Positions 1 to 64,000 of a stretch of DNA of 64,000 nt are shown here, one piece after another; the first letter of the stretch is position 1, and each line of letters starts with the position of its first letter. The stretch comes from a virus. The stretch lies in IMG/VR virus record IMGVR_UViG_3300032287_003622, positions 62,001-126,000 of that record. One strand, 5' to 3'. The position numbers and the translations under genes were made by a program. Below the pieces are notes generated by a model. That model was given only the letters and a program-made list of their open reading frames with translations. It had not been told where the DNA came from and ran no database searches.

Positions 1-221
1 GGCCTGCCGACAAGGTTCTTGATCAATGTCATGCAGTTTACATCCGTGATCCAGCATTTCGTATGCGGCAGATGAAACAGTATTGTCGAGAACAGAATTT
101 AAGTTTGGTATGGTCAGAGCTGGTTGATACCACAGATGTCAGTGCATACTTTGATGAATCTGCAGCATTCTATTTTATTGACCCAGCAGATGCTACTTTA
201 TTCAGTTTGAAATACAAATGA
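1..221 (+). CDS. C-terminal fragment of an unknown phage protein (5' end outside window)
   Basis: An open frame (codons in phase with position 3) runs in from the left edge and stops at TGA 219-221, giving the last 72 residues of a protein whose start is not in view. It ends ADATLFSLKYK. The visible part is soluble, with alternating charged and aromatic residues and no recognised motif. Its stop overlaps the next start codon (ATGA at 218-221), which supports it being a real gene translated together with its neighbour. Function unknown. Confidence 0.75.
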   Translation, partial: PADKVLDQCHAVYIRDPAFRMRQMKQYCREQNLSLVWSELVDTTDVSAYFDESAAFYFIDPADATLFSLKYK

Positions 222-532
222 AAATAACTGTTAAAAAAAATCTAATCATATTCCACCGGGTGGATGAGTGGAGTGCGTTGTTCCAACGGTTGCTGAAGGA
301 ACATGGTGCCAAGATCGCTATCAGCACAGTATGCCGTCGTGAGTTGGGATTTACTATACGCAGACACAAGGGACTTGAACCGCACGATGAAAACACCTGG
401 GAAGTTATGAAAAGCGAAGGGTGGCATCATCGTTATTACTACCAAGATCAGATACATCTTGATTGGTATGATGAAGCAAAAATGACCTGGTTTGTGCTAA
501 AATACCTAAATAACTGCACGGTTGACCAATAA
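218..532 (+). CDS. hypothetical phage protein, 104 aa
   Basis: This small basic protein is rich in aromatic residues (WHHRYYYQDQ near residues 69-78) and has no signal peptide or membrane segment. The start overlaps the upstream stop as ATGA, so translational coupling is likely. I do not recognise a family. It is followed directly by a sigma70-type promoter for the next gene, and its stop lies between the -35 and -10 boxes of that promoter, so it probably ends an operon coming from the left. Confidence 0.7.
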   Translation: MKITVKKNLIIFHRVDEWSALFQRLLKEHGAKIAISTVCRRELGFTIRRHKGLEPHDENTWEVMKSEGWHHRYYYQDQIHLDWYDEAKMTWFVLKYLNNCTVDQ

Positions 533-19270: not shown

Positions 19271-20594
19271 ACCAGCTTTTCAGTGAAGGGAAAGTTTCTG
19301 CAAAGTTTTTGTTTCTGCGTTGATCGTATTGTGTGTAAAACTGTCGGAAGTCATTGAGCAGTTTTGGCTTATCAAAAGCTTCGCTGTGTGGAGTCTTGAC
19401 CTGATCCAAATAATTTATCAAACGTTCAGTGTGACGGATTTCGTGTTCGTGCATGTAGTCCTGACCACGATGTTGATCCAACCATGCTGTCAAGCGTTGT
19501 GCATAATCTTGCTTGATAGACTCAGGCAAGACCAAGGCACTTTGGAAACTGGGGAATCGCAGTATATTCAATGTAAAGTTCACACGATCTCGGCCATACA
19601 CTTTCTTTAGTCTGATCAGTTGATCCAAGAATGTATCCAAACTGTCCAAGCACAGGGCATTGATGGTGGCCATACAATGCACAGCTCGTATGTGTTCATG
19701 TTCTAATAGCTCTTGGACATTGTGCATCCATAAGTCGTAGTCCAGACCATCTCTGATGTATTCAGCTTGGGCACCATAGGCTTCATTGCTGGTATAGATC
19801 TCCACGTGTGGAATATCCTTCAATGCATCTCTAAACTCAAACAAGCGCAACCGATCCATGCCCAAGTTGCTGTTGATAGCCAATCTTGTTTGACTCCGTC
19901 CCTTGTTGGCTTTGAACCAGTCAATCAGTTTCCACAGTTCTCCACTCATGGTGGGCTCACCTCCGGTGATTCTCAGTTCTTGCAAGGTCCGATGTAGATC
20001 ACTTTCCCACCAGGCAAAGAAAGCTTCAACATAGGGATTGGTTTCTCCAAAACGATACAGTTGACTGGCTCCGTGCTCGTGCGTGAAATGATTACGACCA
20101 TCACTGACCAGATCCTGATAAGGGCCATTATTCTTGATGTCTCGGACCCAGGTGCTAGAAAAAGCCGGATTACAATAGCTACATGCAAACTGACAAGTGC
20201 GATCAAAGGCAATTTCAAGAGTGCGTAAATCCACGTCTTCTGCAGGCGGTGTCTTATAGGCTCGATCCAAGGCCTCAATGGGATATATTTTACTTTTGTA
20301 AACACGATCACTTACAGCATCTACACCCATGTCTTCGATTTTCCAGCAGTATTCACAGCCGGCAGGACGTTGGCCTTCCTGCATCATTTTGCGTTCTTTT
20401 TTCTTTAGATAGGTATTGTGCAAGGCTCGTGGATTTTTTTCTACATCTGCTACTTCAACTCTGTGTGCCGGAGGATGATGACAGCTTGTGGTTTGTCCGC
20501 TGCCCAACCATATGGTAGCATTGTACCATTTGGCTGCACAGAAACTGGCACTTTTAGTATCAAGGATCTGACGTCTAAACTCTAGGTCATTCAT
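19251..20594 (-). CDS. radical SAM protein, second subfamily, copy A
   Basis: The 447-aa protein has CQFACSYC (about residues 131-139) and RITGGEPTM. Its N-terminus CAAKWYNATIWLGSGQTTSC with HHPPAHR, then NPRALHNTYLKKKERKMM and CEYCW, is shared with the gene at 21638-22987 but differs from the three PWxx-type copies. It has the typical YTSNEAYGAQAEYIRDGLDY strand. Probably a twitch/SPASM-like radical SAM enzyme of unknown substrate. It overlaps the TEK-motif gene by 8 nt. Confidence 0.88.
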   Translation of the reverse strand: MNDLEFRRQILDTKSASFCAAKWYNATIWLGSGQTTSCHHPPAHRVEVADVEKNPRALHNTYLKKKERKMMQEGQRPAGCEYCWKIEDMGVDAVSDRVYKSKIYPIEALDRAYKTPPAEDVDLRTLEIAFDRTCQFACSYCNPAFSSTWVRDIKNNGPYQDLVSDGRNHFTHEHGASQLYRFGETNPYVEAFFAWWESDLHRTLQELRITGGEPTMSGELWKLIDWFKANKGRSQTRLAINSNLGMDRLRLFEFRDALKDIPHVEIYTSNEAYGAQAEYIRDGLDYDLWMHNVQELLEHEHIRAVHCMATINALCLDSLDTFLDQLIRLKKVYGRDRVNFTLNILRFPSFQSALVLPESIKQDYAQRLTAWLDQHRGQDYMHEHEIRHTERLINYLDQVKTPHSEAFDKPKLLNDFRQFYTQYDQRRNKNFAETFPSLKSWYESIQV

Positions 20595-21654
20595 GGAAAT
20601 AGTGTTTTTTTATAAATTGTTTGAATCGTTTTGGGAATTCATGCCGGACCTTGACTCTCATGTCGGCAAGATGTTGCTGATTGTATTTACATACATTGTC
20701 ACAATCCTCAAGGAAAGCTGCCAGATCCTGATTACATAAGTCTTCTACTATGACAGCAGTTCGTTGTAATCTGTCTTGATTGTTGTCAATGAGATCAAAA
20801 CTTTCATCTATGACCTGACCAAATGTTCGAAATCCCATGTTGTGCATGTCTCTGTAAAAACCTCGATTGGCCACAGCTATCCAAGGATGACCCATGGCTA
20901 TGGGTTTCCAGATTTTTTCAGTTCTAAAACTGTAGGGGTAATCATACACGGTTTCTGTGACCAAGCTGAAATAGGTGTCAAGATAAGGTTGAGCTTTGAG
21001 ATAAATCTCGCCCCATAGGCCACCAAAACGTTGATATTTAACGAATCCATGGTTGTCTATTACGGTATCAGCAAAATGATCAAATTCATATTTTTTGTCT
21101 AGTATTTTCAAGGGACCGGCGGCACTGTCAAGGTTGGTCCAAATACATTGATCCAACAGACCGTGCAATCTCGACAACAGGTATTTTCTGTGAGGTCTAT
21201 TGCGTCCATTGAGAAACAAAAGTTTATAGGGTCTAACAAGTCCTTGTTGTTTTTTGTATTCATCGATGGCCTGTAGATTTTCCTCATAGTCCAATATCTT
21301 GGGCAGAAAGCTGTCATACTGTAAACAGGGCCATGCTGGATCCATATCGCCGCCGCCAATCAATAGAATTGTTCCGGACTTGACCCAAGGTTCTATGCCA
21401 TACATGGCACAATGACGTGCCAGAGTTTCTGAGCCTTCGGCAGGATTACTTAAAATAACCTGTATCACTTTTTGAGAAACCAGATTCTTGATCAAATCAA
21501 TGTGTTGGGTAAATTGCGCACGGCCAATCAAATATACTGCGCCTGGCACTATGTGGTGTTGATCCAGGTTCCAAAATTCTGCATCAGCCCATGGTCGCAA
21601 CAGGTCGTATACTTCACAGAATGTATCCAACACCAGTTTACGATTGCCTAGCAT
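20587..21654 (-). CDS. TEK-motif (glycosyltransferase-like) protein, paralogue 3
   Basis: The 355-aa protein has RTEKIWKPIAMGHPWIAV (about residues 240-257), GFYRDMHNMGFRTF and DESFD. It lies between the two second-subfamily radical SAM genes and overlaps both. An in-frame GTG at 21681 could add 9 residues; ATG 21654 is preferred. The N-terminal half (VLDTFCEVYDLLRPW, LLFLNGRNRPHRKYLLSRLH) resembles the cores of paralogues 5 and 6. Likely a glycosyltransferase-like enzyme; inference from the TEK motif. Confidence 0.75.
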   Translation of the reverse strand: MLGNRKLVLDTFCEVYDLLRPWADAEFWNLDQHHIVPGAVYLIGRAQFTQHIDLIKNLVSQKVIQVILSNPAEGSETLARHCAMYGIEPWVKSGTILLIGGGDMDPAWPCLQYDSFLPKILDYEENLQAIDEYKKQQGLVRPYKLLFLNGRNRPHRKYLLSRLHGLLDQCIWTNLDSAAGPLKILDKKYEFDHFADTVIDNHGFVKYQRFGGLWGEIYLKAQPYLDTYFSLVTETVYDYPYSFRTEKIWKPIAMGHPWIAVANRGFYRDMHNMGFRTFGQVIDESFDLIDNNQDRLQRTAVIVEDLCNQDLAAFLEDCDNVCKYNQQHLADMRVKVRHEFPKRFKQFIKKHYFHE

Positions 21655-50929: not shown

Positions 50930-53900
50930 TAGATTACTCCACTACCAGGTGCAGTTTGTAGATTCGTGCTGGTCAAGGCAGTGATAACTTCTATATCATT
51001 GACTGTGGCGCCATTTACAAAAATCTGATTGGGTGCCGATCTTATCTCGTATAGATCACCAAAACTTTTCTGTGGATTCAAAGGAACCAACACCACCGAG
51101 CTGACCACGTCACCTATGTTTTGATGTATGTAGGCTGCCAGCTCGCTGAAATAAAACGTGTCTCCAAAATTCCAATTGGCCAAATCAAAGTAAGCATTCA
51201 TGTTGGCCACCACAAGATTTTTTATAGCACTGACACTGGCTGTGCTGTTGGCAGACCGTATGACCTTGATAGTGGCACGCAAAGCTGGGTCGGCCTTTTG
51301 ACCAAACAATGGTTGGAAAGACACACTGTTTAGAATCATGTTGTCTGAAATCATTTTGTAATTTTGCAAACCTTGATAAGCTGTGTTGAGATCATCCAAT
51401 GTAGGTGCGCTGGGCTTGGAAACTGTGCCTGTGGTATCTTGTAACCAGTTGATATAGGAAGTGTAGTAGGCGTTGGTTACCAAATACACATCAATGATGT
51501 TTGTGCTTCCAGGATCAATGCGACTGGTCAGAGGACTGTTGTGTCGATATTGGAAATATAAACCTTGACGTCCTACTTTGGCCAGATAGGAATTATCTTG
51601 AGTCAATGTGGGATTACCCAAGATATCAACTCCTAACACATAAAAAAGCTGTGTTTGATAGGCATAAAACACTTGGCCAACTTCGTATTGTGTTTGGACT
51701 GCTTGGATGCTGGCCAAGGTAGGGTAATCACTGTTGACAATTCCTGCATCAATCAATAGATAGCGTTGCAAATTGTCAAAATCCACTGTTTGTTGGAAAT
51801 AGACATATTTTTGATTGCTGTTCACATTAGGAGCTACAATTTCATCAAAGAAATCTGGATTAATAGGAATTCCATCGCCTAGGGCTCGAGTATAACTGAC
51901 TTCCACCTGGAAATCGTCAACCAAGCCATCACTCAGGACTGGCTGATCAATAATGGTAACCACAGTATCGGATCCCAAAGGCACGCTGGCATCGGGTCTA
52001 CTGTTGATTTTCAAGATGTTTACATAATCGCGTATCACAGTTCCAGATCTACTGTCATAGATAGGATCGGCGGTATAAAAGAAGAATCTGGTCTGTAGAA
52101 CGCTGCCAAAATAATAATTCAGAGATCTGTATACAACTGTGTAGGTAGATCCATTGAATGTGGCCTGGATCAGCCAGGAAGCGTCAAGATTGGATCCAGA
52201 TGTGTTTTGAGCATAGGTTTGATTCCAGCTGGCATTGACAGCTAGATTGTTTGAAGTGATCAGATACCAGGTAGCAGTGAGATTATCATAGCCCAGACCA
52301 AAGTTTTGATTGAGATAGATTTGTTGCACCATCTGTTGTTGTAAACTTACAGGAATGTCTGTGACAAATGTAGGAATTACCTGTGTGGGCAAGGCTCCTG
52401 TGGGAACAAAGTTGTTTAAGACCACTGGACCTTCGCCGGAAGGCAAGTTGCCAAGTCCTTCTGCAGTGCCGGATGTATAGACTGCTGTGGGGCTGGCCCA
52501 TATGGTCAGTTTTTCATCAGGCCGTGTTGGCACCCCAACAACCAAACGATTGTCAGAATCAAAATAACGGCCGGTGGGTGCAACAAATTTTACCAAGCTG
52601 CCTTCTGTGATATATTTGGCATTGTTGCTGGCATAATTGCCTATGGCCTGAGGATTGCGTGCGGCATTTTGAAAATACCCTGTGCATTCATTGACCAACA
52701 CAGTGCTCTGATTCCAACTGTAGTTCAGCACACTCAAATCTGGGCGTGTGTAGTTGGCAAAATAAAATTGTTGCAGACCGGCCTTGAGCAACAAAGGATT
52801 GATCTGATTTATCACAGCATCAGAGATGTCATTGATAGTCAACCAACTGAATTGAAATGCCGGCAGTGCAAAATTTTGATAGATAGCACCATCGCTGGCA
52901 AAAATATTTGTGCTGGAATACTTGCCTGTGCCATCCACCAAATCGAGATATCGACTGGTTCCTATGCTGGCACGATTGACAGCGCTGCTTTTTAAAATAC
53001 TGTTGTATTGAGTAAAAGGAAATTGGGTGTAGTCCTCGCCATTGACCATGCGATTTTGAGTATAATATTGAGCAGGAGCACGTTGTTTTATTTCTTGTAT
53101 GGTTTCGCGTGCCTGTGCATTGGTCACCGGCTCTGTGATGCCGCAGGTGAACGTGATGGTTTCGATCTGACCTGTTCGGCTCACATAGTTGATGGGCACA
53201 GTCACGCTCTGCATTTCGACAGGATTAATGATATAGCTCAATCCATTTGAAGCACGCACATAGGTCCTAAAGGTTCCAACTGGTATGGTGCTGAAAATTC
53301 CATCTCCAAAATTCAATGTGATTTGGTCATTGGTGCGACTGGTCACACTGTAGATATCTCTGGTGCCCGGAGCCAATTGTTCCACGGCAGCTGCGTATAC
53401 GCTCTGAACCTTTTCCCAATACCCGGCCACGTTGCCTAAGTTGTTTAATCTATACAACCAAACGTCGGTATTGTTGATGCCTTCTATGTTGATGTTGACT
53501 GCACGATTGATGATTTTTTCTGGCAAATTGAAGTCTTGATTTTGCAATACTCCCTGTTTGAACAAAAAGAAAAAACCTGTGTTGTTGCTGAGGAAACCTT
53601 GTTTGTCATTGCGATACATTATATTGAATTGTCCCACCGGCAGAGGAGGTGGTTCATACACATAATCTTCGCCGGCTGTGGTGGAATTGACCACTTCAAA
53701 AGGCATATTGACTGTGTCAATGGTGGCCGTGAACGGAACCACAGGAATATAGCCTGGTATGAGATTTATGGTATATTCTTGTGTGTCAACACCCATGATG
53801 CTTTTGTTGCTGGATGGTTGCCCAAATTTTTGTGTGTTAACCAGGCTGGCATTGAGTATAGTTATAAATTGTTCTTGCCAGTCGGCATTGGTAGGATCTG

Positions 53901-54333
53901 CCCAGTTCACGGTGATATTGGCCAGATTGATGCCATTGTAATCAATGATATTCTCAGTGGTAGTCACAGAAAAAACTTTGAGATATCCCGATGCACAGGT
54001 ATTGCGCAAAGGTGTATAGCTGACCAAATTGGCCAATTTTACCACGCTGTCTCTGCGTTCGGCGGTGTCTAAGTAGTTTTCTCGGGTGTTTAAATCGGTT
54101 CTAAATGCCAGGCTTTGACCCATAAAAGCCATGACGTCCAGCAAGGCAATGAATTCTGAACTTTCAATGTAGTCGTTGAAAGTTTCTGGGTAATACAGGC
54201 GCAGATAATCTATGAAACTTTTGCGTAGAGTTTCAAAATCGTAACTTTGGAAGTCGGCTTCTTGATAGACCTGATAGATTTGTTTCCAGTCTTCTACGCC
54301 AAAAATCGCTGTTTGTCTTGATGTTGTAGCCAT
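50929..54333 (-). CDS. gp6: baseplate wedge protein, T4 gp6-like
   Basis: The 1134-aa N-terminus has IYQVYQEADFQSYDFETLRKS, YLRLYYPETFNDYIESSEFI, ALLDVMAFMGQSLAFRTDLN and TRENYLDTAERRDSV, the signature of T4 gp6-type wedge proteins. In T4, gp6 dimers form the ring that joins the six wedges around the hub. It is much longer than T4 gp6 (about 660 aa), with Asn/Thr-rich insertions in the middle. Near the end FYFSELAAYIHQNIGDVVSS resembles the gp6/gpJ C-terminal domain. A CTAAATAT motif lies 17 nt before the start. Its stop overlaps the giant gene's ATG by 1 nt. Confidence 0.92.
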   Translation of the reverse strand: MATTSRQTAIFGVEDWKQIYQVYQEADFQSYDFETLRKSFIDYLRLYYPETFNDYIESSEFIALLDVMAFMGQSLAFRTDLNTRENYLDTAERRDSVVKLANLVSYTPLRNTCASGYLKVFSVTTTENIIDYNGINLANITVNWADPTNADWQEQFITILNASLVNTQKFGQPSSNKSIMGVDTQEYTINLIPGYIPVVPFTATIDTVNMPFEVVNSTTAGEDYVYEPPPLPVGQFNIMYRNDKQGFLSNNTGFFFLFKQGVLQNQDFNLPEKIINRAVNINIEGINNTDVWLYRLNNLGNVAGYWEKVQSVYAAAVEQLAPGTRDIYSVTSRTNDQITLNFGDGIFSTIPVGTFRTYVRASNGLSYIINPVEMQSVTVPINYVSRTGQIETITFTCGITEPVTNAQARETIQEIKQRAPAQYYTQNRMVNGEDYTQFPFTQYNSILKSSAVNRASIGTSRYLDLVDGTGKYSSTNIFASDGAIYQNFALPAFQFSWLTINDISDAVINQINPLLLKAGLQQFYFANYTRPDLSVLNYSWNQSTVLVNECTGYFQNAARNPQAIGNYASNNAKYITEGSLVKFVAPTGRYFDSDNRLVVGVPTRPDEKLTIWASPTAVYTSGTAEGLGNLPSGEGPVVLNNFVPTGALPTQVIPTFVTDIPVSLQQQMVQQIYLNQNFGLGYDNLTATWYLITSNNLAVNASWNQTYAQNTSGSNLDASWLIQATFNGSTYTVVYRSLNYYFGSVLQTRFFFYTADPIYDSRSGTVIRDYVNILKINSRPDASVPLGSDTVVTIIDQPVLSDGLVDDFQVEVSYTRALGDGIPINPDFFDEIVAPNVNSNQKYVYFQQTVDFDNLQRYLLIDAGIVNSDYPTLASIQAVQTQYEVGQVFYAYQTQLFYVLGVDILGNPTLTQDNSYLAKVGRQGLYFQYRHNSPLTSRIDPGSTNIIDVYLVTNAYYTSYINWLQDTTGTVSKPSAPTLDDLNTAYQGLQNYKMISDNMILNSVSFQPLFGQKADPALRATIKVIRSANSTASVSAIKNLVVANMNAYFDLANWNFGDTFYFSELAAYIHQNIGDVVSSVVLVPLNPQKSFGDLYEIRSAPNQIFVNGATVNDIEVITALTSTNLQTAPGSGVI

Positions 54334-54350
54334 ATGGGTTCCCAGTTCTA

Positions 54351-54358
54351 ATATTTAG
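54351..54358 (-). promoter_or_regulatory. candidate late promoter CTAAATAT before gp6
   Basis: On the - strand CTAAATAT lies exactly 17 nt before the gp6 ATG, the same octamer and spacing as in front of the first baseplate gene (62974-62981). It has the TAAATA core of T4 late promoters. Confidence 0.6.
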
Positions 54359-54378
54359 TTTTGCTATAAACTGGGTAG

Positions 54379-54753
54379 TTAAACGTAGGTGGCCGAACGT
54401 TGTTGTTGGTCGAAAAATATACTCAACAATTGCGCATTGGTGCTGGGAACCACGGCTAGGCCCAGTTGGATCAAGATACCATTTTGTTGTGGAAATATCT
54501 GCAGACCACTGACATAGACTCGAGGATCGCCGGCACATACTCGCTGTATTTCTTGATACAATGCAGCCTGTGTTTCGCTGGTTTGATTTTCAAACAAATA
54601 GTTCCAAATAACTGTGCCATATCCAGGACGGCCTGGCAACTCTCCTTGTCTGATGTTGAAGGCATTTAACAAATCGATCTTGATCAGATCAAAGTCCACA
54701 GCGGTAAACTTTTTGTTCTGATTTATGGTATTGAATCCAATAAAAGTAGGCAT
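54379..54753 (-). CDS. gp25: baseplate wedge protein, T4 gp25-like
   Basis: The 124-aa protein shows the gp25/GpW lysozyme-like wedge pattern: an N-terminal strand, then VDFDLIKIDLLNAFNIRQGE, LPGRPGYGTVIWNYLFENQT, IQRVCAGDPRVYVSGLQIF and a C-terminal amphipathic strand. In T4, gp25 joins gp6 and gp53 in the wedge core and helps set sheath contraction. Placement just before gp6 fits. GTAAATAA ends 4 nt before the ATG. No strong ribosome site is seen. Confidence 0.93.
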   Translation of the reverse strand: MPTFIGFNTINQNKKFTAVDFDLIKIDLLNAFNIRQGELPGRPGYGTVIWNYLFENQTSETQAALYQEIQRVCAGDPRVYVSGLQIFPQQNGILIQLGLAVVPSTNAQLLSIFFDQQQRSATYV

Positions 54754-54767
54754 GTTGTTATTTACTC

Positions 54768-56375
54768 TTATATCAGCGTAGAAGAATTTGGATTAAAAAC
54801 TGTGGTTCCCACACTGGCCAATGAGCCACTGTTTAATGATGACAAATTAGAAAATGCCCCCTGGGCTCTTCCCTGCAAATCTTTTAAAACATTTTGTGCT
54901 TTGGCTATGTCCAAAGCAGCACCGAGGCTGGCAGAATCCGGCAACTTGGGCTCAAAACTGGGCACAGGAATTTTGTTGCTGCCAAAAACTTTGATCATGG
55001 CCACGTCTACTGTGGCGCGATTCACAGTGTTTGAAAAACCTGCGGCTTTTTGCACCGATGCTACCAAACTGTCGCCAACCCCACCAAAAAGATTGGTCAC
55101 ATTGAAACTTCCCAATTGTCCAGTCAATGAACCCAGCTGAGCCTGGGCCTGTCCCAACAAGGCTGTGGCCTGTCCCTGTAGTTGTCCGGCCAAGGCTGTG
55201 ACCTGGCCAGTTACTGCTGATTGCGCCTGACCCAGTAAATTGCTGACGCTGGGCAGATTTGAAGTTAAATTGCTTAGACTGAGGTTTGACAAATTACTTA
55301 GACCATTGGTCAAAGTGCTGGCGGCACCGGATGCAAATTGGCTGACTTTGCCAAGACTGTTCATGGCTGTCTGCACCGACGCAAGACTGGGTGTAATTCC
55401 TGAGGTCAAGTTGCCTAGTCCCGGCAATCCTGAAAACACTTGAGAAGACAAACCTTTGATATTGACCAGATTTGTTGTAAGATTGGTCAGTCCTGGCAAA
55501 CCCTGTGCCCATTGGGCTGTGAGTTGGGTGCCAAATCTACTGGCATTGTTGACCAAGGCTGCTATTTGACCATTAACATTGTTGGTCAAAGTAGATGTGA
55601 TAGCATTGACTGGCTGATTGGACCCCATGAATATCTGTCCATTCACAGCGGCGATACTTTGTGCCGCAGGAGTTGTTATTACTCCAGTTGCTTGCAAGCT
55701 GTCATAGCCATTGACCATGAGGGTGCTCTGAGCAGTATTTTGAGCCGTTGGGTTGATGAGGAATTGGTCAGCGGTGTTGATTCCATCTTTGCCGGTCCAG
55801 ATACCTGGTGCTTTCAAAACATCAACCAAGTTGTTAGATCCTGATTTCAGAAACTGTTGCCAAGTTCCGGGTTTGACATATCCTGACATTTCCAACTGTT
55901 GACAACTCAGACCATATTGTCCTACTCCTTTTTCATTGGTAATGACCGTGGCCGGCTGATCCACGGTGTTAGCTACCTGTGCCATGAGAGCCTGAGTTTG
56001 ATTACTGGTCAATGACCCAATGGCCGGAGGTGTAAATCCTGTGGAAGTAATGGAGGCTATGTCGGCTTGGTCAATGGGATTCTGCAACGGCACATCAACC
56101 AAAGGTGGCACACTGGCCACAGTTGGCAGGCCATTTATTATGGCCAATATAACAGTGTCGTCTACACCTGCTGTGCCTCGGTCCAAGCGACTCAACTCAA
56201 ATTTGACCAAGGAAGATCTTGCTCCGGATATACTTTGTCCTGGCACAAATCCTACCAAAGCACCAGCAGCAACCTGACTGTAAAATATCTGATCTGCCTG
56301 CTCTTGAGTAGTTCCTGTAGGAGTTTGCATGGTAAATTTTGCGCCGGAAGGAAGAGTATATTTGAACTGGCTCAT
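54768..56375 (-). CDS. tail/baseplate-associated protein with low-complexity helical region, 535 aa
   Basis: The N-terminal ~50 residues (YTLPSGAKFTMQTPTGTTQE, then QADQIFYSQVAAGALVGFVP) are followed by a region with GVGQYGLSCQQLEMSGYVKP, GTWQQFLKS and APGIWTGKDGI. That region looks like a small helical module sometimes linked to peptidoglycan-active or hub-associated phage proteins. Residues ~285-430 are very rich in Leu, Asn, Ser, Gly and Gln with heptad-like spacing (SNLSLSNLTSNLPSVSNLLG), suggesting an elongated helical or spike-stabilising segment. It lies between the spike and gp25 genes, so baseplate hub is the likely site. Exact role unknown. Confidence 0.7.
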   Translation of the reverse strand: MSQFKYTLPSGAKFTMQTPTGTTQEQADQIFYSQVAAGALVGFVPGQSISGARSSLVKFELSRLDRGTAGVDDTVILAIINGLPTVASVPPLVDVPLQNPIDQADIASITSTGFTPPAIGSLTSNQTQALMAQVANTVDQPATVITNEKGVGQYGLSCQQLEMSGYVKPGTWQQFLKSGSNNLVDVLKAPGIWTGKDGINTADQFLINPTAQNTAQSTLMVNGYDSLQATGVITTPAAQSIAAVNGQIFMGSNQPVNAITSTLTNNVNGQIAALVNNASRFGTQLTAQWAQGLPGLTNLTTNLVNIKGLSSQVFSGLPGLGNLTSGITPSLASVQTAMNSLGKVSQFASGAASTLTNGLSNLSNLSLSNLTSNLPSVSNLLGQAQSAVTGQVTALAGQLQGQATALLGQAQAQLGSLTGQLGSFNVTNLFGGVGDSLVASVQKAAGFSNTVNRATVDVAMIKVFGSNKIPVPSFEPKLPDSASLGAALDIAKAQNVLKDLQGRAQGAFSNLSSLNSGSLASVGTTVFNPNSSTLI

Positions 56376-56384
56376 GTTATTTTG

Positions 56385-58259
56385 TTAACCGTTGTATCCT
56401 ACAGATGCGCCTAATCTGGCATTCATGGCTTTGAAGGCTTCCAAGGCAGCCACCGCACGGGGGTCATCACGACCAAACTCTGCTACCAGCTTTTCATATT
56501 CATTCTGTTTGGCTTCTATATCATTGATTAAAACTCGCTGTGCAGCCCGGTCAAGCGTGGCGGAACTAGCTGTTGCGGGCGACACTGCACCGTTGGTAAA
56601 ACCCAACCCAGACGGCAAGGCATTGGTTATGGCCCCGGCTCCGGGTATGCTGGACAATGCGCCGGTGATGGCTCCTGCCCCGGGAATGCCAGACAAGCTA
56701 GGCAAGCCAGGTATGCTGGGTAAACCAGTAGGCAAGCTGGGTGCAGTGGCCGTTATGGTTACATTTTCGGGCACTTCGGGAGCATCAGGTGGCGGTGTCG
56801 GTGTGGCATCAGACAATTTGACTGATGTAGACACGCCTTGATTGTGATAAGGATAAGGTTCATGTGTGGGTGCTCGAGTCACTATGCTTTCGGTTGTTGC
56901 TGGAGTGGCCAACCAACCCACACTGGCATTGAATTCAACTTTGGGGTGCAGATACTTGGTAAGACCCGGTGGTGTTTCTACATCAATACGCGGACCGCCA
57001 TTGAGCTGTATTTGTCCGCTGTTGAAACTGAGACTGCTGTCAGCTGCCCAGCTGCCCAATTGACTGGTGATGGCCAGTGTGCCAGGAGTTTTTATGCCTA
57101 CACTGTTTTGGCTGAACAAAGTCAGCTTGCCTTTGTTTGACAAGCTCATGTCGCTGTCGCTTTGCAAAATTGTGCCTTTGATACTTTTGGTATTGATCTT
57201 GCCTCCAGCATACATGTTGATGTCTTCATCGGCATGTAGATTGATAGTTCCTTGAGTGCGTATGTTTACACTGTTAGTGGTGTAAACATCCAAGGTTCCT
57301 TCCTGGCCCAACTCAATCCAGGATTGTCCGTTGGCATGACAGATATAAAAGCAATTGCCGTCATCACTCATGGTTATCTGATGACCCTTACTGGTGCGTA
57401 TTCTTATTAGATTATCATTGCCATTGAGATCACCGTCGTCCATGACCAAGCTGTGTCCGCCACGGCGAGCTATTACTGTGGCTGCTGAGGCCGGACGTGA
57501 GGCCAAAGACTGTGGATTTATGTCTTCTTCGGCCTCGTTGGCTCCGCCAACATTTTGATAAATGGCTCGACCCGGTGTGCTGATACCATAACATCCACTG
57601 GGACTTTCTCTTTGACTAGTGCTGCCAATGGTGCCACGTATGTCATCATTGATAAGACCTTGTTGAAACAGGATACCGGCCACATAACTATGAACAGGCT
57701 TGGGTTGATCAAAATATTTAGGATTGTCAGCTATGTTAGGATTGCGGGCATTTATCTCAGTGACTGGCAGTTTTTCAGCCGAAGCAAAATAGCTGGCCTG
57801 TGTTTTGTTCTGTGTGACAGCCTCTGATTTTTTTACCGATCCAACGGCTGGAATCATGTGTGTGATTCCTTGCTCGGGTATGCATCCTATGTAGTAGCCT
57901 TGATTGGGATCGCCACCAACAAAAAAACACAGCACCTGCACACCTATGTCTGGTGGAGTGAACCACATGCCGTAGCTTTGAGGATTACCCTGTTCAAAGG
58001 CCCCGGTCCCGGCACTTTTTCCAGCGGGTGTGGCTCCGTAAAATGGTGGGCAGTAATTGACTGTGCGCCACAGGCTAGAGTCTTTTGGATTGGGTCCACC
58101 AAACTGTTCGATGTATACCTGTAGACGTCCGGATCTGGTGGGGTCTACATTGTTGGTAACTGTTCCTACGAATGGCCCAAATTCTGTGGGCATGCCTCCA
58201 CGATCAAACTTGTAATTGGTAGGTTGTCCGCGATTGCGTCCTAGATTTTCTCCGGCCAT
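56385..58259 (-). CDS. gp5: baseplate central spike, gp5/VgrG-like, no lysozyme domain
   Basis: The 624-aa protein begins with an OB-fold region typical of gp5 (PTRSGRLQVYIEQFGGPNP, GMWFTPPDIGVQVLCFFVGG, DPNQGYYIGCIPEQG). It then has a needle of beta-helix repeats of the gp5/VgrG kind (IRIRTSKGHQITMSDDGNCF, YTTNSVNIRTQGTINLHADE, DINMYAGGKINTKS, KLTLFSQNSVGIKTPGTLAI). The lysozyme domain found in T4 gp5 is absent. The C-terminus is Pro/Gly-rich (PSLPTGLPSIPGLPSLSG) with a final helix. The spike pierces the outer envelope during injection. It overlaps the upstream gene by 1 nt. Confidence 0.88.
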   Translation of the reverse strand: MAGENLGRNRGQPTNYKFDRGGMPTEFGPFVGTVTNNVDPTRSGRLQVYIEQFGGPNPKDSSLWRTVNYCPPFYGATPAGKSAGTGAFEQGNPQSYGMWFTPPDIGVQVLCFFVGGDPNQGYYIGCIPEQGITHMIPAVGSVKKSEAVTQNKTQASYFASAEKLPVTEINARNPNIADNPKYFDQPKPVHSYVAGILFQQGLINDDIRGTIGSTSQRESPSGCYGISTPGRAIYQNVGGANEAEEDINPQSLASRPASAATVIARRGGHSLVMDDGDLNGNDNLIRIRTSKGHQITMSDDGNCFYICHANGQSWIELGQEGTLDVYTTNSVNIRTQGTINLHADEDINMYAGGKINTKSIKGTILQSDSDMSLSNKGKLTLFSQNSVGIKTPGTLAITSQLGSWAADSSLSFNSGQIQLNGGPRIDVETPPGLTKYLHPKVEFNASVGWLATPATTESIVTRAPTHEPYPYHNQGVSTSVKLSDATPTPPPDAPEVPENVTITATAPSLPTGLPSIPGLPSLSGIPGAGAITGALSSIPGAGAITNALPSGLGFTNGAVSPATASSATLDRAAQRVLINDIEAKQNEYEKLVAEFGRDDPRAVAALEAFKAMNARLGASVGYNG

Positions 58260-59893
58260 TATGCATCATCCCTTGCAATTATTTGAGGTGCTTCGTTGGT
58301 TGTTCCGCCATCGGTGCCGGCCAATCCTGCGGCATAATCAATGTCACCGGTAGAGGTAGGATCTTCGGGTGGTGGTGCTGGCTGTGGTTCGGGATACTCA
58401 AAACCTATGTTGGCATCATCAATGCGACTGGGTTCAAAACCTATGTTGGCATCGGCCACCCTGCTGGGTTCATTTTCAAAACCAACATTGGCATCCTCTA
58501 CACGACTGGGCAAACGAGATCCTGTAGCAGTGCTGGTCGGTGTTGGACGACCCTGTGCTGTCTGGGAAGGATTTACAGAATTGCTCAATGGCAGAAGACT
58601 GCCTACCAGTTCTTGTGTGAACTGACCTTTGCTGAAAACATTTTTACAGCTCTTGGATATAAATGCAAACGTTTCCTGGGGAGCTCCGGATCCTGAATTT
58701 GTGTTCATAATACCTGTGTTGAAATCATAGTCAGTGGGTCGATTAAAACTCACTGTGAATGTCACTTCTTGACTGTCATAATTTATGCTGCCATCGGCAT
58801 TGAAAGGCTTGAATTCAAAACTGCGTGCATTGACGCCAAAAGCCACTTCGCCTTGTTGCAACCAGGCCGGATCGCCCACAATGCGCAACCTTACTTCGCT
58901 GAAATCACTCACACTGTAGAGAAAAGATGCAGCGTTGTCGGCTGGCTCATTGATGTAGTTGGGTTGTCCTTGTCCTCTCTGTTCACTGGTAGCCATGTGG
59001 AACTGTTTGAACTGATCTCTTCCTTTGGGGGGAGGAACTGCCAAGGCACTGGCGTTACCACTCAGTGTGACATAATAGGCCTGATTGTATTCTTGTTCAT
59101 AGTGCAATATGGCATTGTTCAAACCGGTGAACCAATAGTTATAGGCCTTGTGAGCGCCACGATAGTTGCTGTTGGGAAAATAAGGACTGGCCATCTGGTT
59201 GATAGAATATGGCGAGATCACAAAAGTCATGCGATAGGCATGATCTCTGCGTTTGTTATCATAGGCCAATTGTTTGGCATTGACACTGATCTTGTACCAA
59301 GCAGTGACCCCGCTGTTGGCCTTGGCATTCTTGGTTTGTTGACCGTCCTCATCAAAATTTACTTTTTGCTGATCTGTAATATATTTGCTGCTACGCATGA
59401 CCTGATCTATGAACTGCACTATCTGCGTGCCGGCCAACACCTGCCAGATCTGGCTGTTTTTGTTGACAGAATCAGTATTTTGATCCAGTTTGGCAGCCGC
59501 TGTGTTGACATTTTTTGGTGCAGTGTTTCTATAGATAACAGGGCCGGGCTTGACAACTTCTGAGGCTCCTATGGATGCCGGGGCAAATTCTATGGCATAT
59601 TCGTCGGCCACTGCATAAGTGCCACGTTTGACCAAATCTTTTTGGTATTGATTTAAGGCCTCGCATAGGCCAGTGAAAATATTGTTGTTGCCTTTGCTAG
59701 GGGCATCAGGAGCCTTGGGAGCGGCCGAGCCCGGATTGGCGATTTGGTCAAACAATTTGTTTTTGACTGCTATTGTGCCGGGCGTGTCGCCACCGTAAAT
59801 TCTCACAGCACCACGACCGGTATTGCCGGCGGCATCCAAAGCAGCTTGAACTTGATTTTGTTGTTGAATACGAGATTTTGATATTCCAGGCAT
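58259..59893 (-). CDS. baseplate hub-region structural protein, 544 aa
   Basis: Residues ~100-400 include YAIEFAPASIGASEVVKPGP, MTFVISPYSINQMASPYFPN, YNYWFTGLNNAILHYEQEYN and ARSFEFKPFNADG, a layout seen in hub-type proteins of T4-like aquatic phages. The tail is a Pro/Ser/Asp-rich linker with three DANxGFE repeats (separate entry). It sits directly upstream of the spike gene, so it probably belongs to the hub that holds the spike, the place of gp27 in T4. Assignment by position and layout, not by a named motif. Confidence 0.7.
   Translation of the reverse strand: MPGISKSRIQQQNQVQAALDAAGNTGRGAVRIYGGDTPGTIAVKNKLFDQIANPGSAAPKAPDAPSKGNNNIFTGLCEALNQYQKDLVKRGTYAVADEYAIEFAPASIGASEVVKPGPVIYRNTAPKNVNTAAAKLDQNTDSVNKNSQIWQVLAGTQIVQFIDQVMRSSKYITDQQKVNFDEDGQQTKNAKANSGVTAWYKISVNAKQLAYDNKRRDHAYRMTFVISPYSINQMASPYFPNSNYRGAHKAYNYWFTGLNNAILHYEQEYNQAYYVTLSGNASALAVPPPKGRDQFKQFHMATSEQRGQGQPNYINEPADNAASFLYSVSDFSEVRLRIVGDPAWLQQGEVAFGVNARSFEFKPFNADGSINYDSQEVTFTVSFNRPTDYDFNTGIMNTNSGSGAPQETFAFISKSCKNVFSKGQFTQELVGSLLPLSNSVNPSQTAQGRPTPTSTATGSRLPSRVEDANVGFENEPSRVADANIGFEPSRIDDANIGFEYPEPQPAPPPEDPTSTGDIDYAAGLAGTDGGTTNEAPQIIARDDA
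58399..58510 (-). repeat. three tandem DANxGFE repeats in the hub protein tail
   Basis: The C-terminal tail contains three copies of (P)SR(V/I)xDAN(V/I)GFE: RVEDANVGFE, RVADANIGFE and RIDDANIGFE, about 12-15 residues apart. The nucleotide copies are also similar, which fits recent tandem duplication. A flexible linker or protein-binding repeat is likely. Confidence 0.8.
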
Positions 59894-59902
59894 GATTTCT
59901 CT

Positions 59903-61210
59903 CTATGGTGCCACTATTGAAAAAGGACTTTCGGTCTCGCCTGTGAAGTTACCCAAGGCATCTACTCCGGCACTGGCACGGATATCATTGACTGTGGCCC
60001 CAGGATTGGTTGGAGTAAAGATCTGGGCCGGACTGGGAGATTCTGTGCGAGCACCCGACTCTTGTTGAACAGCAGGGGCTCCTGCAGCACTGCCTTGTAG
60101 AATCTGTGCCACGGTCTGACCAGAAAATTGGAAGGCAAATGGTATGGTGCCTCTGGCTTGACTGGTGCCTGTGGAGTAAGGCACTGGTTTTCCAACAATG
60201 TTATATTCGATCTGATTGGCCACAGTCCTGAAAGTTAGATTCTCTATAAGGAAAGGATAATATTTTTTGATTACTGCTTGACTGGTCGATCCAGAAACAC
60301 CGCCGCGTGCAGGAGCCACTAAATTGCCTTGACTGTCGTAACCGTAGAATTCTATGGTCAGACAATACTGCGCGGCTCCATAATTGGGGGCCTGACTGGT
60401 CTGATTTGCTGTAGTATTGGCGGTGGTTGTGGCCTGAGCACCACTGCCTGCTGTGGGGTTTTTGTAGGCTGTTTGCAAAGCACTGTAAAGATTTTGTATC
60501 AAAGTCAACCCATTGGGTTCCACAACTTTGAATCTTATTTCTGTGGCATTGTTGCTCATGTTGGTGCCTTTGCCCATGAGCACGGTTTCTATTTCCAAAT
60601 CATCTAGATAGTAGTCATAGGGAAAATATTGATTGCGGCCGCCGGTAGGTGCCCCTCCGCTTTGCATGAGCAGGCTCCAATTGCCAGTGCCGGGCGCTGG
60701 CGCAAGTCCTGTGGTAAGATTGTTGTATTGATCCGGGGTCAACAACCACCAAGAAATAGCGTAGGTATAACTGGCATACTGATCCAGCACATTTGGCTGA
60801 GGTGTTATAGGTTGGTTGGCAAAGGTCTGATTGATGACCTGCTGGTTGCTGGTGCTGGATCTGGGTGGAGTATCATCATTGCCTCGGGCTCCGTAAGGAT
60901 CAGATGAGGTTCCGGCACCTACTCCAGATGAGGTAGGAGCTTTAGGAGTTTGAACAGGTGCATCTTCTTGTGCACCGGCTTGTGCAGGACCGCCCAAGAT
61001 TTGTGTTGGTTCGGCTAATTCTGTAGTGGCTTGGGTCTGCTCGATTGTGCCTGTTTTGGGATTTGTTGCCTCATAGGCTTGTTGTTGTTCTGGAGTAGGT
61101 GCGGCCGCAAGATCCAGAATTTGACCTGTGCTTGGATCATCGTAGTAGTATCCGCCCGACGGCGACGGCCCTACATAACGATAAAATGACGGGAATTCTC
61201 CTTGTGCCAT
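59903..61210 (-). CDS. baseplate hub-region structural protein, 435 aa
   Basis: The N-terminal ~130 residues are Gln/Thr/Pro-rich (a disordered linker). From ~145 the body has YTYAISWWLLTPDQYNNLTT, DLEIETVLMGKGTNMSNNA, TEIRFKVVEPNGLTLIQNLY and CLTIEFYGYDSQG. Its C-terminus is again low-complexity, with NPGATVNDIRASAG. This core recurs in T4-like aquatic phages next to the 544-aa hub protein, and the two are probably partners in the baseplate hub. It ends 9 nt before the 544-aa gene. Exact T4 equivalent not certain. Confidence 0.7.
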   Translation of the reverse strand: MAQGEFPSFYRYVGPSPSGGYYYDDPSTGQILDLAAAPTPEQQQAYEATNPKTGTIEQTQATTELAEPTQILGGPAQAGAQEDAPVQTPKAPTSSGVGAGTSSDPYGARGNDDTPPRSSTSNQQVINQTFANQPITPQPNVLDQYASYTYAISWWLLTPDQYNNLTTGLAPAPGTGNWSLLMQSGGAPTGGRNQYFPYDYYLDDLEIETVLMGKGTNMSNNATEIRFKVVEPNGLTLIQNLYSALQTAYKNPTAGSGAQATTTANTTANQTSQAPNYGAAQYCLTIEFYGYDSQGNLVAPARGGVSGSTSQAVIKKYYPFLIENLTFRTVANQIEYNIVGKPVPYSTGTSQARGTIPFAFQFSGQTVAQILQGSAAGAPAVQQESGARTESPSPAQIFTPTNPGATVNDIRASAGVDALGNFTGETESPFSIVAP

Positions 61211-61211
61211 G

Positions 61212-61514
61212 CTAGAATCCCAACACTGATTTGAGAGTGCTCAATCTAGGCAGGTATATCACTGTTCCTGCTTCAAAATCCATGGGTGGTTCAGTCAAAG
61301 TATTGGGGTTGCGTTGATAAAACACCCACCACAAGCCGGCATCCCCATAAAGGTCAAAGGCCAATAGATCGGGTCGGTATTGAAAAGTGGTATTGATCGT
61401 AAACAAGATGTCGTCGGCTGACTTGGGTATAGGCCGATTGTTCATGACATCCAAAAAGAATTGGCTGTAACCTGTAGTAAAATAAGGACTCGTCGCGCTG
61501 TAATTGCCGGCCAT
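61212..61514 (-). CDS. gp53: baseplate wedge protein, T4 gp53-like
   Basis: The 100-aa protein contains TFQYRPDLLAFDLYGDAGLWWVFY, RNPNTLTEPPMDFEAGTVIYLP, the LysM-like pattern of gp53 and related wedge proteins (Leu-Tyr-Gly-Asp ... Leu-Trp-Trp-Val ... Gly-x-x-Ile-Tyr-Leu-Pro). In T4, gp53 binds wedges to the hub. Overlaps the upstream gene by 1 nt and abuts the 435-aa gene. Confidence 0.85.
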   Translation of the reverse strand: MAGNYSATSPYFTTGYSQFFLDVMNNRPIPKSADDILFTINTTFQYRPDLLAFDLYGDAGLWWVFYQRNPNTLTEPPMDFEAGTVIYLPRLSTLKSVLGF

Positions 61515-62956
61515 TACCAGAATCCTCCTTTCAACAAGTTACCGTTGGCAAAGTTCTTGAGACTGAACTGTTTGCTTACCTGGCTTCGGCTCTGCACCGG
61601 CAACAATGTCAGTTGCATGTCGATTTTGGTGGGCACGTAGGTAGGATTATTTAATAAACTTCGCAATGGGGCAGCCACTTCGTTTTCGGCTCCGCGTGGC
61701 AAGAAAGCAGCTGCCAATCGCGTGACTGTTGGACTGACAGCATTGAGTGTGGTGGAATAAAGATTTTGCAAAGGTTGTAGATTCAAGCCCAGATTGTTGG
61801 GGCTTCCAGAACTTATATAATCAACATCAGCAGGCAGGGTATAATTGAATTGCGTTACCAAGCAAGGATGATTGCTGAATTGATAATCTCCTAGGCCACT
61901 GAAAAAAACCAAGGGTGGCGGACTGCCGCGTTGCGCATCTTGGCCATAAAACATCTTGGTCACACTGCGGAAAAAGTGTATGACTGCCAGCACATAGGCC
62001 GCATCTGCTGTGCTCTGCGCTGTGAATGGAGCATTGATTGTGACCTGATCAGTATAACTGTTTTGATAGAAATATCCTCGATAGTTGCTGTGTGTAAGAT
62101 CGTAAGGATTGTAATTGGCCTTGTAGGCTGTGCTTATGGTAGGAGTAAAAGGAAATATTACTCCATTGGTTGTTTTCAATGGTTGCAATATGCCTGCATC
62201 CGGAGCATTATACAAATAAGTAGCACCCGGTGCCAATCTCAAGGTAACACGCCAGTCGGTGTTGACTGGCATCTGTGCGAGGCTGGAATTGGTCTCTTGA
62301 TTCTGTGCCTGGATCACGCCAGTGGTCACCTCACTTTGTCTAGGAGCACCCCCGAATACCCTCTCTGCCTCAAACAACTGTGCGTCTGTTATGCCAACTT
62401 CAATGTCAGGTTCGCCCTGGCTGACACCATTGGCCGCTGCCAAGGCATCCAAATCCTCGGCCGAATACTTGATATCCGAAGCTGGCACAGCGATTTCATT
62501 TTGTGAACCATAGCCGTCGGTGTTGCCAGATTCCTGGAATTCATTGGGGGTTACCTGGTCGGCCGGAATTATCTGTTCATTGGCCTGGGCGGAATCTGTT
62601 TGTTGAGCTTCAGGATCTACCTGTGGACTGACAGTGTTGTTTGTGGATGTTGTGACAGATCCGTCTGGAGAAGGCAATGTTGAGGTTTGCCCAGATTCGG
62701 CCTGTTGTGCTCGTTCCAGATTGGCCATGTCGTCATCATACTGGATCTTTAGCGTATCTGCAAATGATTGCTGACTGTTTACCAAGCGATTTTTGGCTTC
62801 AAGAAACTCAGGTGTGCCCGGTGTTAATCTACCCGCAGCTACTTCATTGTCTAACTGCTGGCGGCCGGCGGCAACTTTGTCCAGGGCGTCCTGGAGCAAG
62901 AATCTTGATTGATTCACAGCTTTGTTAGCAGACTGCACTGTAGGAGTAAATGCCAT
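61514..62956 (-). CDS. baseplate/tail-tube-associated structural protein, 480 aa
   Basis: The first gene of the late operon. The N-terminal ~100 residues are a coiled-coil-like helix (LLQDALDKVAAGRQQLDNEV). A Ser/Gln/Thr-rich linker follows to ~215. From ~235 a beta-rich core has WRVTLRLAPGATYLYN, GVIFPFTPTISTAYKANYNP, NAPFTAQSTADAAYVLAVIH and LVTQFNYTLPADVDYISSG. The end TKIDMQLTLLPVQSRSQVSK resembles tube-cap or initiator proteins (gp48/gp54 type) by layout, but that is tentative. GGAG and AGGA lie 8-12 nt before the start, and a CTAAATAT motif 17 nt before it. Confidence 0.75.
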   Translation of the reverse strand: MAFTPTVQSANKAVNQSRFLLQDALDKVAAGRQQLDNEVAAGRLTPGTPEFLEAKNRLVNSQQSFADTLKIQYDDDMANLERAQQAESGQTSTLPSPDGSVTTSTNNTVSPQVDPEAQQTDSAQANEQIIPADQVTPNEFQESGNTDGYGSQNEIAVPASDIKYSAEDLDALAAANGVSQGEPDIEVGITDAQLFEAERVFGGAPRQSEVTTGVIQAQNQETNSSLAQMPVNTDWRVTLRLAPGATYLYNAPDAGILQPLKTTNGVIFPFTPTISTAYKANYNPYDLTHSNYRGYFYQNSYTDQVTINAPFTAQSTADAAYVLAVIHFFRSVTKMFYGQDAQRGSPPPLVFFSGLGDYQFSNHPCLVTQFNYTLPADVDYISSGSPNNLGLNLQPLQNLYSTTLNAVSPTVTRLAAAFLPRGAENEVAAPLRSLLNNPTYVPTKIDMQLTLLPVQSRSQVSKQFSLKNFANGNLLKGGFW

Positions 62957-62973
62957 GTCGTTGTCCTCTCCAC

Positions 62974-62981
62974 ATATTTAG
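62974..62981 (-). promoter_or_regulatory. candidate late promoter CTAAATAT of the structural operon
   Basis: On the - strand CTAAATAT ends 17 nt before the ATG of the first baseplate gene. Same octamer and spacing as before gp6. It lies in the 111-bp divergent region with the late sigma gene. Confidence 0.65.
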
Positions 62982-63015
62982 CGGAAAAATAAACCACCTA
63001 TATTATGAATAAAGG

Positions 63016-63043
63016 TTGACAACCTGGCATTTCGTGCTACAAT
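63016..63043 (+). promoter_or_regulatory. sigma70-type promoter of the late sigma gene
   Basis: TTGACA (63016-63021, perfect) and TACAAT (63038-63043) are spaced by 16 bases. This would let host RNA polymerase make the late sigma factor before late transcription begins. Confidence 0.75.
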
Positions 63044-63048
63044 AAATA
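63041..63048 (+). promoter_or_regulatory. late-promoter-like octamer AATAAATA before the late sigma gene
   Basis: Matches TATAAATA at 7 of 8 bases, overlaps the -10 box above, and ends 19 nt before the GTG start, close to the spacing of the late motifs on the other strand. It would allow the sigma factor to raise its own expression. Confidence 0.4.
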
Positions 63049-63067
63049 ATATCTTAGGAGAATTTTA

Positions 63068-63970
63068 GTGTCAACTACTGTCACACGAACCCCAGCAAAG
63101 ACAAATTATTTAAATAATCGAGATATCTTAAAACAGATACACCTAAGCAAGAACACCTACTGCACCTATCGTGATCCTGCGACAGATCACCAGTATGATA
63201 TCATCCTGCCCACGGTCACAAAGATCAATCAAAGAACCATAGTCGAAGCACGCAGGAATCGTGCAGATCGCATACGGCGCGAAACTGGTGTAGAAATCGA
63301 TCAAAAGAAAATACCCAATACTGATCTGGTGTTCCGTATAACCTGCTGGGAACACATACCCATGGCACCTAAAAAAATTCCAAAAAGTCAGCAAAAGAAA
63401 AAGAAAATAGAAGACATGTTTGAGTTGGACGTGTTGGATGAGGACGATCCACTTGCTGAATTGTTGGAACAACCTGTGTTGGATGAAAAACATGTGCGCT
63501 TGAACTTTCCTCCTTTTTACCACTATCGCTTGGATAAAAACAAGGCGCCGTACCTGGTGGGCAAAAGCCACTGGCGTGGCGACCTTGACAAGGGCGAGTT
63601 TTCAAAAGATCACGGCATCATGACCCGCACCTTGGCCACCATGTTTATGAAATTATGCGAACGCTATGCCACACGATCAAACTGGCGTGGCTATACCTAC
63701 AATGAAGAAATGCGTGGGCAGGCACTACTACAACTCAGCCAAATTGGTCTGCAGTTTGATGAATCAAAAAGTCAAAATCCATTTGCTTACTACACCGCGG
63801 CCATTACAAATAGTTTCACACGCATCTTGAATCTGGAAAAGAAAAATCAAAACATCAGGGATGACATGCTGGAACAAGCCGGACTCAATCCATCGTGGAC
63901 AAGACAAAATGCTGGCAAGAAAAATCCCAACTTTGCACCCAGCGAGGTTGTAATTATCACTGAAGAATAA
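63068..63970 (+). CDS. gp55: late-transcription sigma factor, T4 gp55-like
   Basis: The 300-aa protein ends with the gp55 core: YATRSNWRGYTYNEEMRGQAL, LQLSQIGLQFDESKSQNPFAYY, TAAITNSFTRILNLEKKNQNI, RDDMLEQAGLNPSW. This resembles the sigma region 2-like part that lets host RNA polymerase read late promoters. It is far longer than T4 gp55 (185 aa): the N-terminal ~110 residues (NNRDILKQIHLSKNTYCTYR, TIVEARRNRADRIRRE) and a Lys-rich then Asp/Glu-rich linker (KKKKIEDMFELDVLDEDDP) are extra. GTG start, with AGGAG at 63056-63060, 7 nt before. Divergent from the structural operon. Confidence 0.9.
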   Translation: MSTTVTRTPAKTNYLNNRDILKQIHLSKNTYCTYRDPATDHQYDIILPTVTKINQRTIVEARRNRADRIRRETGVEIDQKKIPNTDLVFRITCWEHIPMAPKKIPKSQQKKKKIEDMFELDVLDEDDPLAELLEQPVLDEKHVRLNFPPFYHYRLDKNKAPYLVGKSHWRGDLDKGEFSKDHGIMTRTLATMFMKLCERYATRSNWRGYTYNEEMRGQALLQLSQIGLQFDESKSQNPFAYYTAAITNSFTRILNLEKKNQNIRDDMLEQAGLNPSWTRQNAGKKNPNFAPSEVVIITEE

Positions 63971-64000
63971 AAAAATTCGGGCATGAATTTGTCAAAAACC

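Follow-up and report, generated by a model that had tools for sequence, protein, structure and literature searches.

A gp55-type late sigma factor with an inserted domain, and a host-type promoter overlapped by a putative late element

The window, a stretch of 64,000 nucleotides that makes up bases 62001-126000 of a virus record of 134,932 bases (which may itself be a fragment), encodes a gp55-type late sigma factor that carries an inserted domain and lies behind a promoter in which a predicted late element sits on the host-type -10 hexamer. We consider it fairly probable that this promoter hands the gene over from host to phage. The gene and its promoter are real, well conserved and belong to a known family. 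For the superimposed promoter and for the insert we found no description in the literature, in searches that were not aimed at exactly either. T4 late transcription is the model for the coupling of transcription to replication, and a gene whose predicted start signals, for host and for phage, both lie within one stretch of 11 bases offers a testable case.

The late sigma factor and its relatives

The gene (63068..63970, + strand) has a GTG start at 63068, behind a Shine-Dalgarno sequence, AGGAG, read at 63056..63060 (+). Its product of 300 amino acids matches phrog_12791 at E 2.2e-72 and phrog_234 at E 9.5e-24, and T4 gp55 is matched among PDB sequences at E 2e-06. A gp55-homologous core is present: the sigma-2 core (residues 186-258; 63623..63841, +) aligns with T4-type gp55 in hhalign at E 5.6e-18, and with T4 gp55 (7d7c_F) in VIA-align. 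The protein is a gp55-type late sigma factor of the T4-like jumbo-phage branch; the preliminary description had named it a late sigma factor, and both family matches bear this out.

Relatives are encoded in at least 597 viral-contig stretches, the best 80 of which were kept and are 76-94% identical to the window protein. In 1,727 records of named phages there is a match at E up to 1, and 56 of them match 80% or more of the protein at a single place. Of those 56, 40 were listed, and these are jumbo phages of 284-490 kb at 34-41% identity, including Phosso, Atu_ph07, PA5oct, Serratia BF, 121Q and Munch. The late sigma of CBB, GAP32, RaK2, 121Q, PA5oct and Atu_ph07 (phrog_12791) is the same protein with the same insert. 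A scan of viral contigs with the protein of Vibrio 2.275.O found no relative, and bases 52001-64000 of the window had no near match in the phage collection. Much of the jumbo-phage late system is already in print: the CBB report (PMC5259590) describes a gp55-like protein, CBB_244, behind a variant of an RpoD-like promoter, and finds ATAAATA as a late motif in 35 places.

With T4 gp55 (7d7c) the window protein shares helix 1, the sigma-2 core and two further helices after the core, and the likeness extends to T4-type late elements in the genome. Of the seven T4 -10-pocket residues compared (N13, L54, R57, F86, H95, Y97 and T99), five are identical here (N17, R203, F230, Y241 and T243), and the differences are L54 to Y200 and H95 to F239. 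Among the T4 residues tested in PMC7892883, N13, R57, F86, Y97, T99 and E70 are kept and R114 is replaced by K. Two others, D74 and E77, through which T4 gp55 touches the clamp helices, are not kept, the corresponding residues being Q218 and L221. The window protein also differs from T4 gp55 in having about 155 residues between helix 1 and the core, and a C-terminus without a recognisable clamp motif of the SLDFLYE type.

AlphaFold2, given 33 sequences (the window protein and 32 chosen from the 122 usable of 132 loci), produced a full-length model with pLDDT 80.3 and pTM 0.69. In order along the chain it has helix 17-29, strands 32-34 and 45-47, helix 55-73, strand 88-92, a low-confidence loop with helix 106-118, strands 150-155 and 161-167, and helices 187-201, 212-229, 238-270 and 277-285. 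The best PDB match of the model is T4 gp55, 7d7c_F (Foldseek E 2.4e-03), and the best viral match an uncharacterised protein of 340 amino acids (E 3.2e-16). Between helix 1 and the core the models place an inserted alpha/beta domain with invariant residues of its own (residues about 31-185; 63158..63622, +). Within it lies a Lys-rich and then acidic loop (residues ~102-140; 63371..63487, +), which the preliminary description had taken for a linker: the charged stretch exists, but as a low-confidence loop inside the insert that does not join a domain to the sigma part.

A host-type promoter and an overlapping putative late element

Upstream of the gene, a -35 element of the host sigma70 type, TTGACA (63016..63021, +), is followed after a 16-base spacer by a -10 element, TACAAT (63038..63043, +), with the TG of an extended -10 (TGnTACAAT) at 63035..63036 (+). 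The putative gp55-type late element AATAAATA overlaps the -10 hexamer at 63041..63048 (+). TTGACA-16-TACAAT overlapped by AATAAATA was what the preliminary description had claimed, and the sequence reads exactly so. By the usual spacings, transcription is predicted to start at ~63050 from the host-type promoter and at ~63054 from the late one, both just 5' of the Shine-Dalgarno sequence. Consensus match alone was dropped as promoter evidence because it is not strong: scanned loosely for a -35 and a -10, the record yields 100 sites, and three Markov copies of it yield 81, 74 and 58.

Early in infection, host sigma70-RNA polymerase would make the first late sigma, which would then direct the host core polymerase to late promoters of the TAA(A/G)TA type, that of the divergent structural operon among them. 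The sigma factor would also act on its own gene via the overlapping element, so that expression would pass from host to phage control, with starts ~4 nt apart. A dual early and late promoter had been proposed at the outset, and comparison of sequences supports it through the conserved composite and the enriched late hexamers. We infer positive feedback of the sigma gene on its own promoter; hand-over or damping is equally allowed. It is possible, if on the unlikely side, that the overlap serves as a hand-over or brake, the late holoenzyme excluding the host-type promoter and giving lower or steady expression with no amplification. Two polymerases presumably cannot occupy the overlapping sites together, and published accounts describe basal late transcription of T4 without the clamp as low in level and sensitive to conditions (PMC2988020, PMC7892883), which also counts for a brake. 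We found no point against it, and a brake and positive feedback read alike in sequence.

Conservation bears on whether there is a late element at all. The composite was followed in 75 window-clade upstreams (the window and 74 relatives, duplicates kept, anchored on a protein motif; 6 of 81 sequences were dropped for having less than 120 nt upstream or no anchor). All 75 read TTGAC[A/C/G], a 16-base spacer and TAnAATAA[A/G/C]TA, the -35 being TTGACA in 73 and the -10 hexamer TAnAAT in every one; the variable base of the late element is A or G in 71 and C in 4. In the 57 distinct upstreams, whose rows were anchored on TTGAC (L077, one of the 75, is missing there through a wrongly chosen start and was recovered by anchoring on the protein motif), the TG has T in 57/57 and G in 52/57, and the late element reads AATAA[A/G/C]TA in 57/57, with A at the variable base in 47, G in 8, C in 2 and T in 0. 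Among 22 dissimilar upstreams, TTGACA occurs in 21, and the element is AATAAATA in 17, AATAAGTA in 4 and AATAACTA in 1. The composite pattern occurs exactly once per record, at the late sigma gene, in 7/7 clade records, and in 0/9 other records searched whole (seven named jumbo phages, one contig and T4). Controls gave 0 matches in the 16 records, and the pattern is more than chance.

Could the AAATA after the -10 be only an A/T-rich discriminator tuned for the host polymerase, the gene having just one promoter, of host type, and none for late transcription? A/T-rich discriminators are ordinary, 10 of the 57 distinct upstreams depart from AATAAATA (AATAAGTA in 8, AATAACTA in 2), and the host-type promoter is spread more widely than the overlap: in the sister clade of PA5oct-like contigs, by a loose criterion, it occurs in 44 of 47 upstreams (a set that includes near-identical contigs), 40 of the 44 with a 17-base spacer. 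Yet AAnTA keeps its four fixed bases in 57/57, whereas the spacer and the seven bases after the element vary: mean entropy is 0.04 bits over the -35, 0.16 over the -10 and 0.16 over AAnTA, as against 1.23 over the first 12 spacer bases and 1.22 over the seven bases that follow. In the sister clade, moreover, the late element stands in register in 1/44 (TAACTA), and TAARTA there in 0/44; the overlapping promoter belongs to one clade and is nearly absent from its sister. Together with the preference at the variable base, described next, this makes a host-only promoter improbable.

Late promoters like TATAAATA are present in the genome. When hexamers 8-60 nt before ORF starts were counted against whole-record frequency in two records, from greedy ORF calls with unrefined starts, TAAATA ranked first in both. 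It was found 19 times against 1.5 expected in G000, a count that includes the sigma site (antisense 3), and 71 times against 5.0 expected in G001, first of 4,079 hexamers (antisense 23). TAAGTA came 5th in G000 (5 against 0.6 expected) and 3rd in G001 (17 against 1.4); TAACTA was seen 5 times against 0.7 and 4 times against 1.8, and TAATTA once against 0.8 and 5 times against 2.2, respectively. The order of A, then G at the variable base agrees in both records, and C over T only in G000; TAACTA and TAATTA are alike in G001, so that the lack of T at the sigma promoter is matched in G000 only. Intergenic DNA is A/T-rich, which inflates such hexamers, and others such as ATAATA also rank high. The TAAATA of the sigma promoter lies 25 nt before the start codon, and 12 of the 25 listed TAAATA sites, the sigma site included, lie 24-33 nt before a start. 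The A-then-G preference that the sigma promoter shares with elements enriched before genes in two records speaks most strongly for the late sigma reading the overlap, which is how we take it from these sequence comparisons, and it counts against a mere discriminator for the host polymerase.

The dual promoter lies between divergent gene groups, an order shared with the seven named jumbo phages inspected. In all seven, the late sigma gene opens a rightward group with nuclease genes, which follow it directly in 6/7; in Phosso they come after a glycosyltransferase and a small gene. The leftward group that faces it has genes labelled structural or baseplate in 6/7, and in Phosso and Atu_ph07 a nucleotidyltransferase-type gene comes first. 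In the window, a TAAATA late element (62975..62980, -) precedes the divergent structural-gene operon, facing the ORF at 61514-62956 (-). An antisense TAARTA occurs somewhere in the up to 230 nt upstream in 75/75 sequences of the window clade and in 46/47 of the sister clade. Unlike the named jumbo phages, the window clade has in addition a long charged loop and the late element superimposed on the -10.

The sliding clamp and the coactivator

The charged loop is conserved in the window clade, with IED(I/M)FEL and DPLAxLxxxPVLD recurring across 81 aligned sequences, and is missing from the sister-clade sequences compared, which argues that it is more than a spacer. One might ask whether the insert is a built-in coactivator, in which the loop peptide IED(I/M)FEL would replace the C-terminal clamp motif and the domain would do the work of gp33. 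Besides the conservation of the loop, IEDMFEL resembles the C-terminus of the DNA polymerase of the same genome (FQALFDW in G000, FQTLFEW in G001). The sigma C-termini share no clamp motif, a conserved hydrophobic-acidic C-terminus not being found across 33 or 81 late sigma sequences, and gp33 (phrog_254) reaches at best E 0.026, in Phosso, among 15 non-T4 records, some of them fragments, compared with 1.6e-33 in T4. However, gp33 is poorly conserved, so a missing match means little, and the resemblance of loop and polymerase was noticed before it was scored. In shuffled proteins the clamp-motif pattern is just as common (2.05 expected and 3 seen in G000, 3.35 and 4 in G001). In a ranking of heptamers the loop site comes 24th of 41,792 in G000 and 51st of 104,128 in G001, a rank reached by chance in a protein of 300 amino acids about one time in six or seven. 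With the motif also missing in the sister clade, we regard a built-in coactivator as quite improbable.

Two of the pattern matches may be mentioned in passing. One of the three in G000 falls, judged by eye, in an aminotransferase-like protein and is a chance match. In G001 the motif of the polymerase C-terminus has its second-best match in a protein of 165 amino acids that starts MTRKLESLFDF (L184:610-1107, G001 320610-321107) and is, by eye, perhaps small-terminase-like.

For the sliding clamp itself, a search with PF02916 found gp45 in 0/15 non-T4 records and phrog_223 found it in 1/15 (Vibrio 2.275.O), some of these records being fragments; the CBB report (PMC5259590) likewise gives no gp33 or gp45, and attachment sites may vary between phages, as stated in PMC2988020. 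A candidate for a divergent gp45-like sliding clamp is phrog_12062, whose gene closely follows that of the DNA polymerase, on the same strand, in 14/15 non-T4 records, the exception being a 182-kb record without a polymerase match. Its members include L083:139-858 (= G000 20139-20858), L176:5643-6362, L160:1414-2130 and L188:233-976. The member from Vibrio hits phrog_223, the gp45 family, at E 6.7e-05; PDB searches with phrog_12062 gave nothing relevant, and its hhalign probability against T4 gp45 is 2.6. A wholly self-contained late sigma is an idea we hold to be highly doubtful: its insert, placed like the sigma70 nonconserved region, would contact polymerase or upstream DNA; in the window clade an internal peptide, IED(I/M)FEL, would bind the clamp in place of a C-terminal one and tether late polymerase, without gp33, to a divergent sliding clamp for which phrog_12062 is the candidate; and its gene would be under both host and its own control. 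In Pseudomonas phage Cassandra (L191), the DNA polymerase frame runs, by eye, into intein-like sequence.

Site and fold of the inserted domain

Where the insert sits depends on the position of helix 1, the conserved segment 1 of gp55 (residues 11-30, with NYLNN; 63098..63157, +). A second hhalign alignment pairs residues 6-24 with T4 gp55 4-20 (E 0.0013, probability 18); the primary alignment, instead of covering helix 1, extends weakly across the last part of the insert and puts T4 N13 at N158. An HMM of residues 11-29 was run against 958 sequences (11 T4-type, 397 proteins of G001 and 550 shuffles). After an orthologue, it ranked four T4-type gp55 N-termini best, at E 0.07-0.23; T4 itself came at E 1.3, below two decoys and above the first shuffle, and 6/11 T4-type proteins were not above the shuffles (one cut short by ORF choice). 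In VIA-align 7d7c_F is again the best match (Z 14.0, rmsd 3.5 over 123 residues, model 13..285 to chain 10..153), so the aligned range takes in helix 1. Weak singly and consistent together, these three lines indicate that the N-terminal segment 1 of gp55 is kept before the core. The preliminary description had counted ~110 extra residues at the N-terminus; the T4-type N-terminal segment, at residues 11-29, comes before the extra residues, which number ~155 and are internal (about 31-185). An N-terminal fusion of gp55 with an independent domain, proposed there, is very hard to credit and we reject it: local sequence similarity to T4-type gp55 does start at residue ~158-189, and the primary hhalign alignment leaves helix 1 out, but helix 1 and NYLNN match T4 gp55 4-20 ahead of the insert, lead the HMM ranking and fall within the structure-alignment range.

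The place of the insert recalls bacterial sigma factors. Sigma70 chains reach Z 10.4 in VIA-align, and 8ftd_L aligns at Z 9.9 and rmsd 2.5 over 92 residues (model 13..257 to chain 109..446), although a Z under about 13 can reflect a common arrangement for helical bundles. With 92 residues aligned over such ranges, both chains skip a long stretch: by subtraction ~153 residues of the model and ~246 of sigma70, the break points following from the end points. The ~246 skipped residues of 8ftd_L are what we take to be the extent of the sigma70 nonconserved region. On the model, the insert lies by position at the site of that region, between regions 1.2 and 2.1, and the likeness is one of position only, the insert alone having matched nothing relevant in structure and profile searches. 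According to PMC7403470, the nonconserved region of bacterial sigma70 makes contact with beta-prime and with promoter DNA at -16/-17, influences both DNA opening and promoter escape, and is where RbpA and GrgA bind. By analogy, the insert would probably be placed next to the polymerase clamp and to the DNA immediately 5' of the late element, and probably helps to bind polymerase or to open promoters without a -35 element; it is position, and nothing further, that suggests such a sigma70-like role. A 2010 review did not settle whether segment 1 of gp55 is the counterpart of sigma region 1.1/1.2, and asked why no fused, larger late sigma exists (PMC2988020). In the jumbo branch, as modelled, helix 1 falls on region 1.2, and the next site holds a whole extra domain, as in sigma70.

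Modelled alone (residues 28-186), the insert has pLDDT 81.8 and pTM 0.71, and is predicted to fold as a separate domain. Against solved structures, Foldseek gave unrelated proteins only (best E 0.61), VIA-align a best Z of 2.3 among 981 chains, and a profile search of PDB sequences a best E of 1.3; absence of a solved-structure match does not make the fold new. Pfam gave only a sub-threshold match to YihI (E 0.1) over the charged loop, which we attribute to composition. The domain might also exist as a gene of its own, a possibility raised in the preliminary description. In tblastn at E up to 10, it matched 56 of 50,697 phage records, all annotated functions at these places being late sigma, in a search that would miss a much diverged separate copy and in which not every hypothetical or unannotated place was opened. 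The whole protein, too, is matched over at least 80% of its length in 56 records; in 42 of the 56 tblastn records less than 80% of the insert was matched, among those listed mostly the last ~50 residues. A separate gene was rejected as a candidate, no other function being annotated at any of the 56.

Sister-clade late sigmas (at Cassandra-like loci such as L117, L129 and L148) are, by eye, often extended at the N-terminus by an acidic stretch of ~20 residues ahead of the NYLNN helix. Eight of the 132 viral-contig relatives carry intein-like in-frame inserts, complete in L146, L147, L149, L150, L151, L155 and L156 and partial in L152. They lie in the sigma-2 core, after NWRGY and before TY(L/V)DEM, are 330-338 amino acids long in the five measured, and have Cys first, GN last and Thr next. 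Their LAGLIDADG and intein-N matches fall below curated cut-offs, and an intein-bearing reductase model matches two of them at E 2e-10 to 5e-10. Interrupted in the sigma-2 core, those sigma factors would need protein splicing to work.
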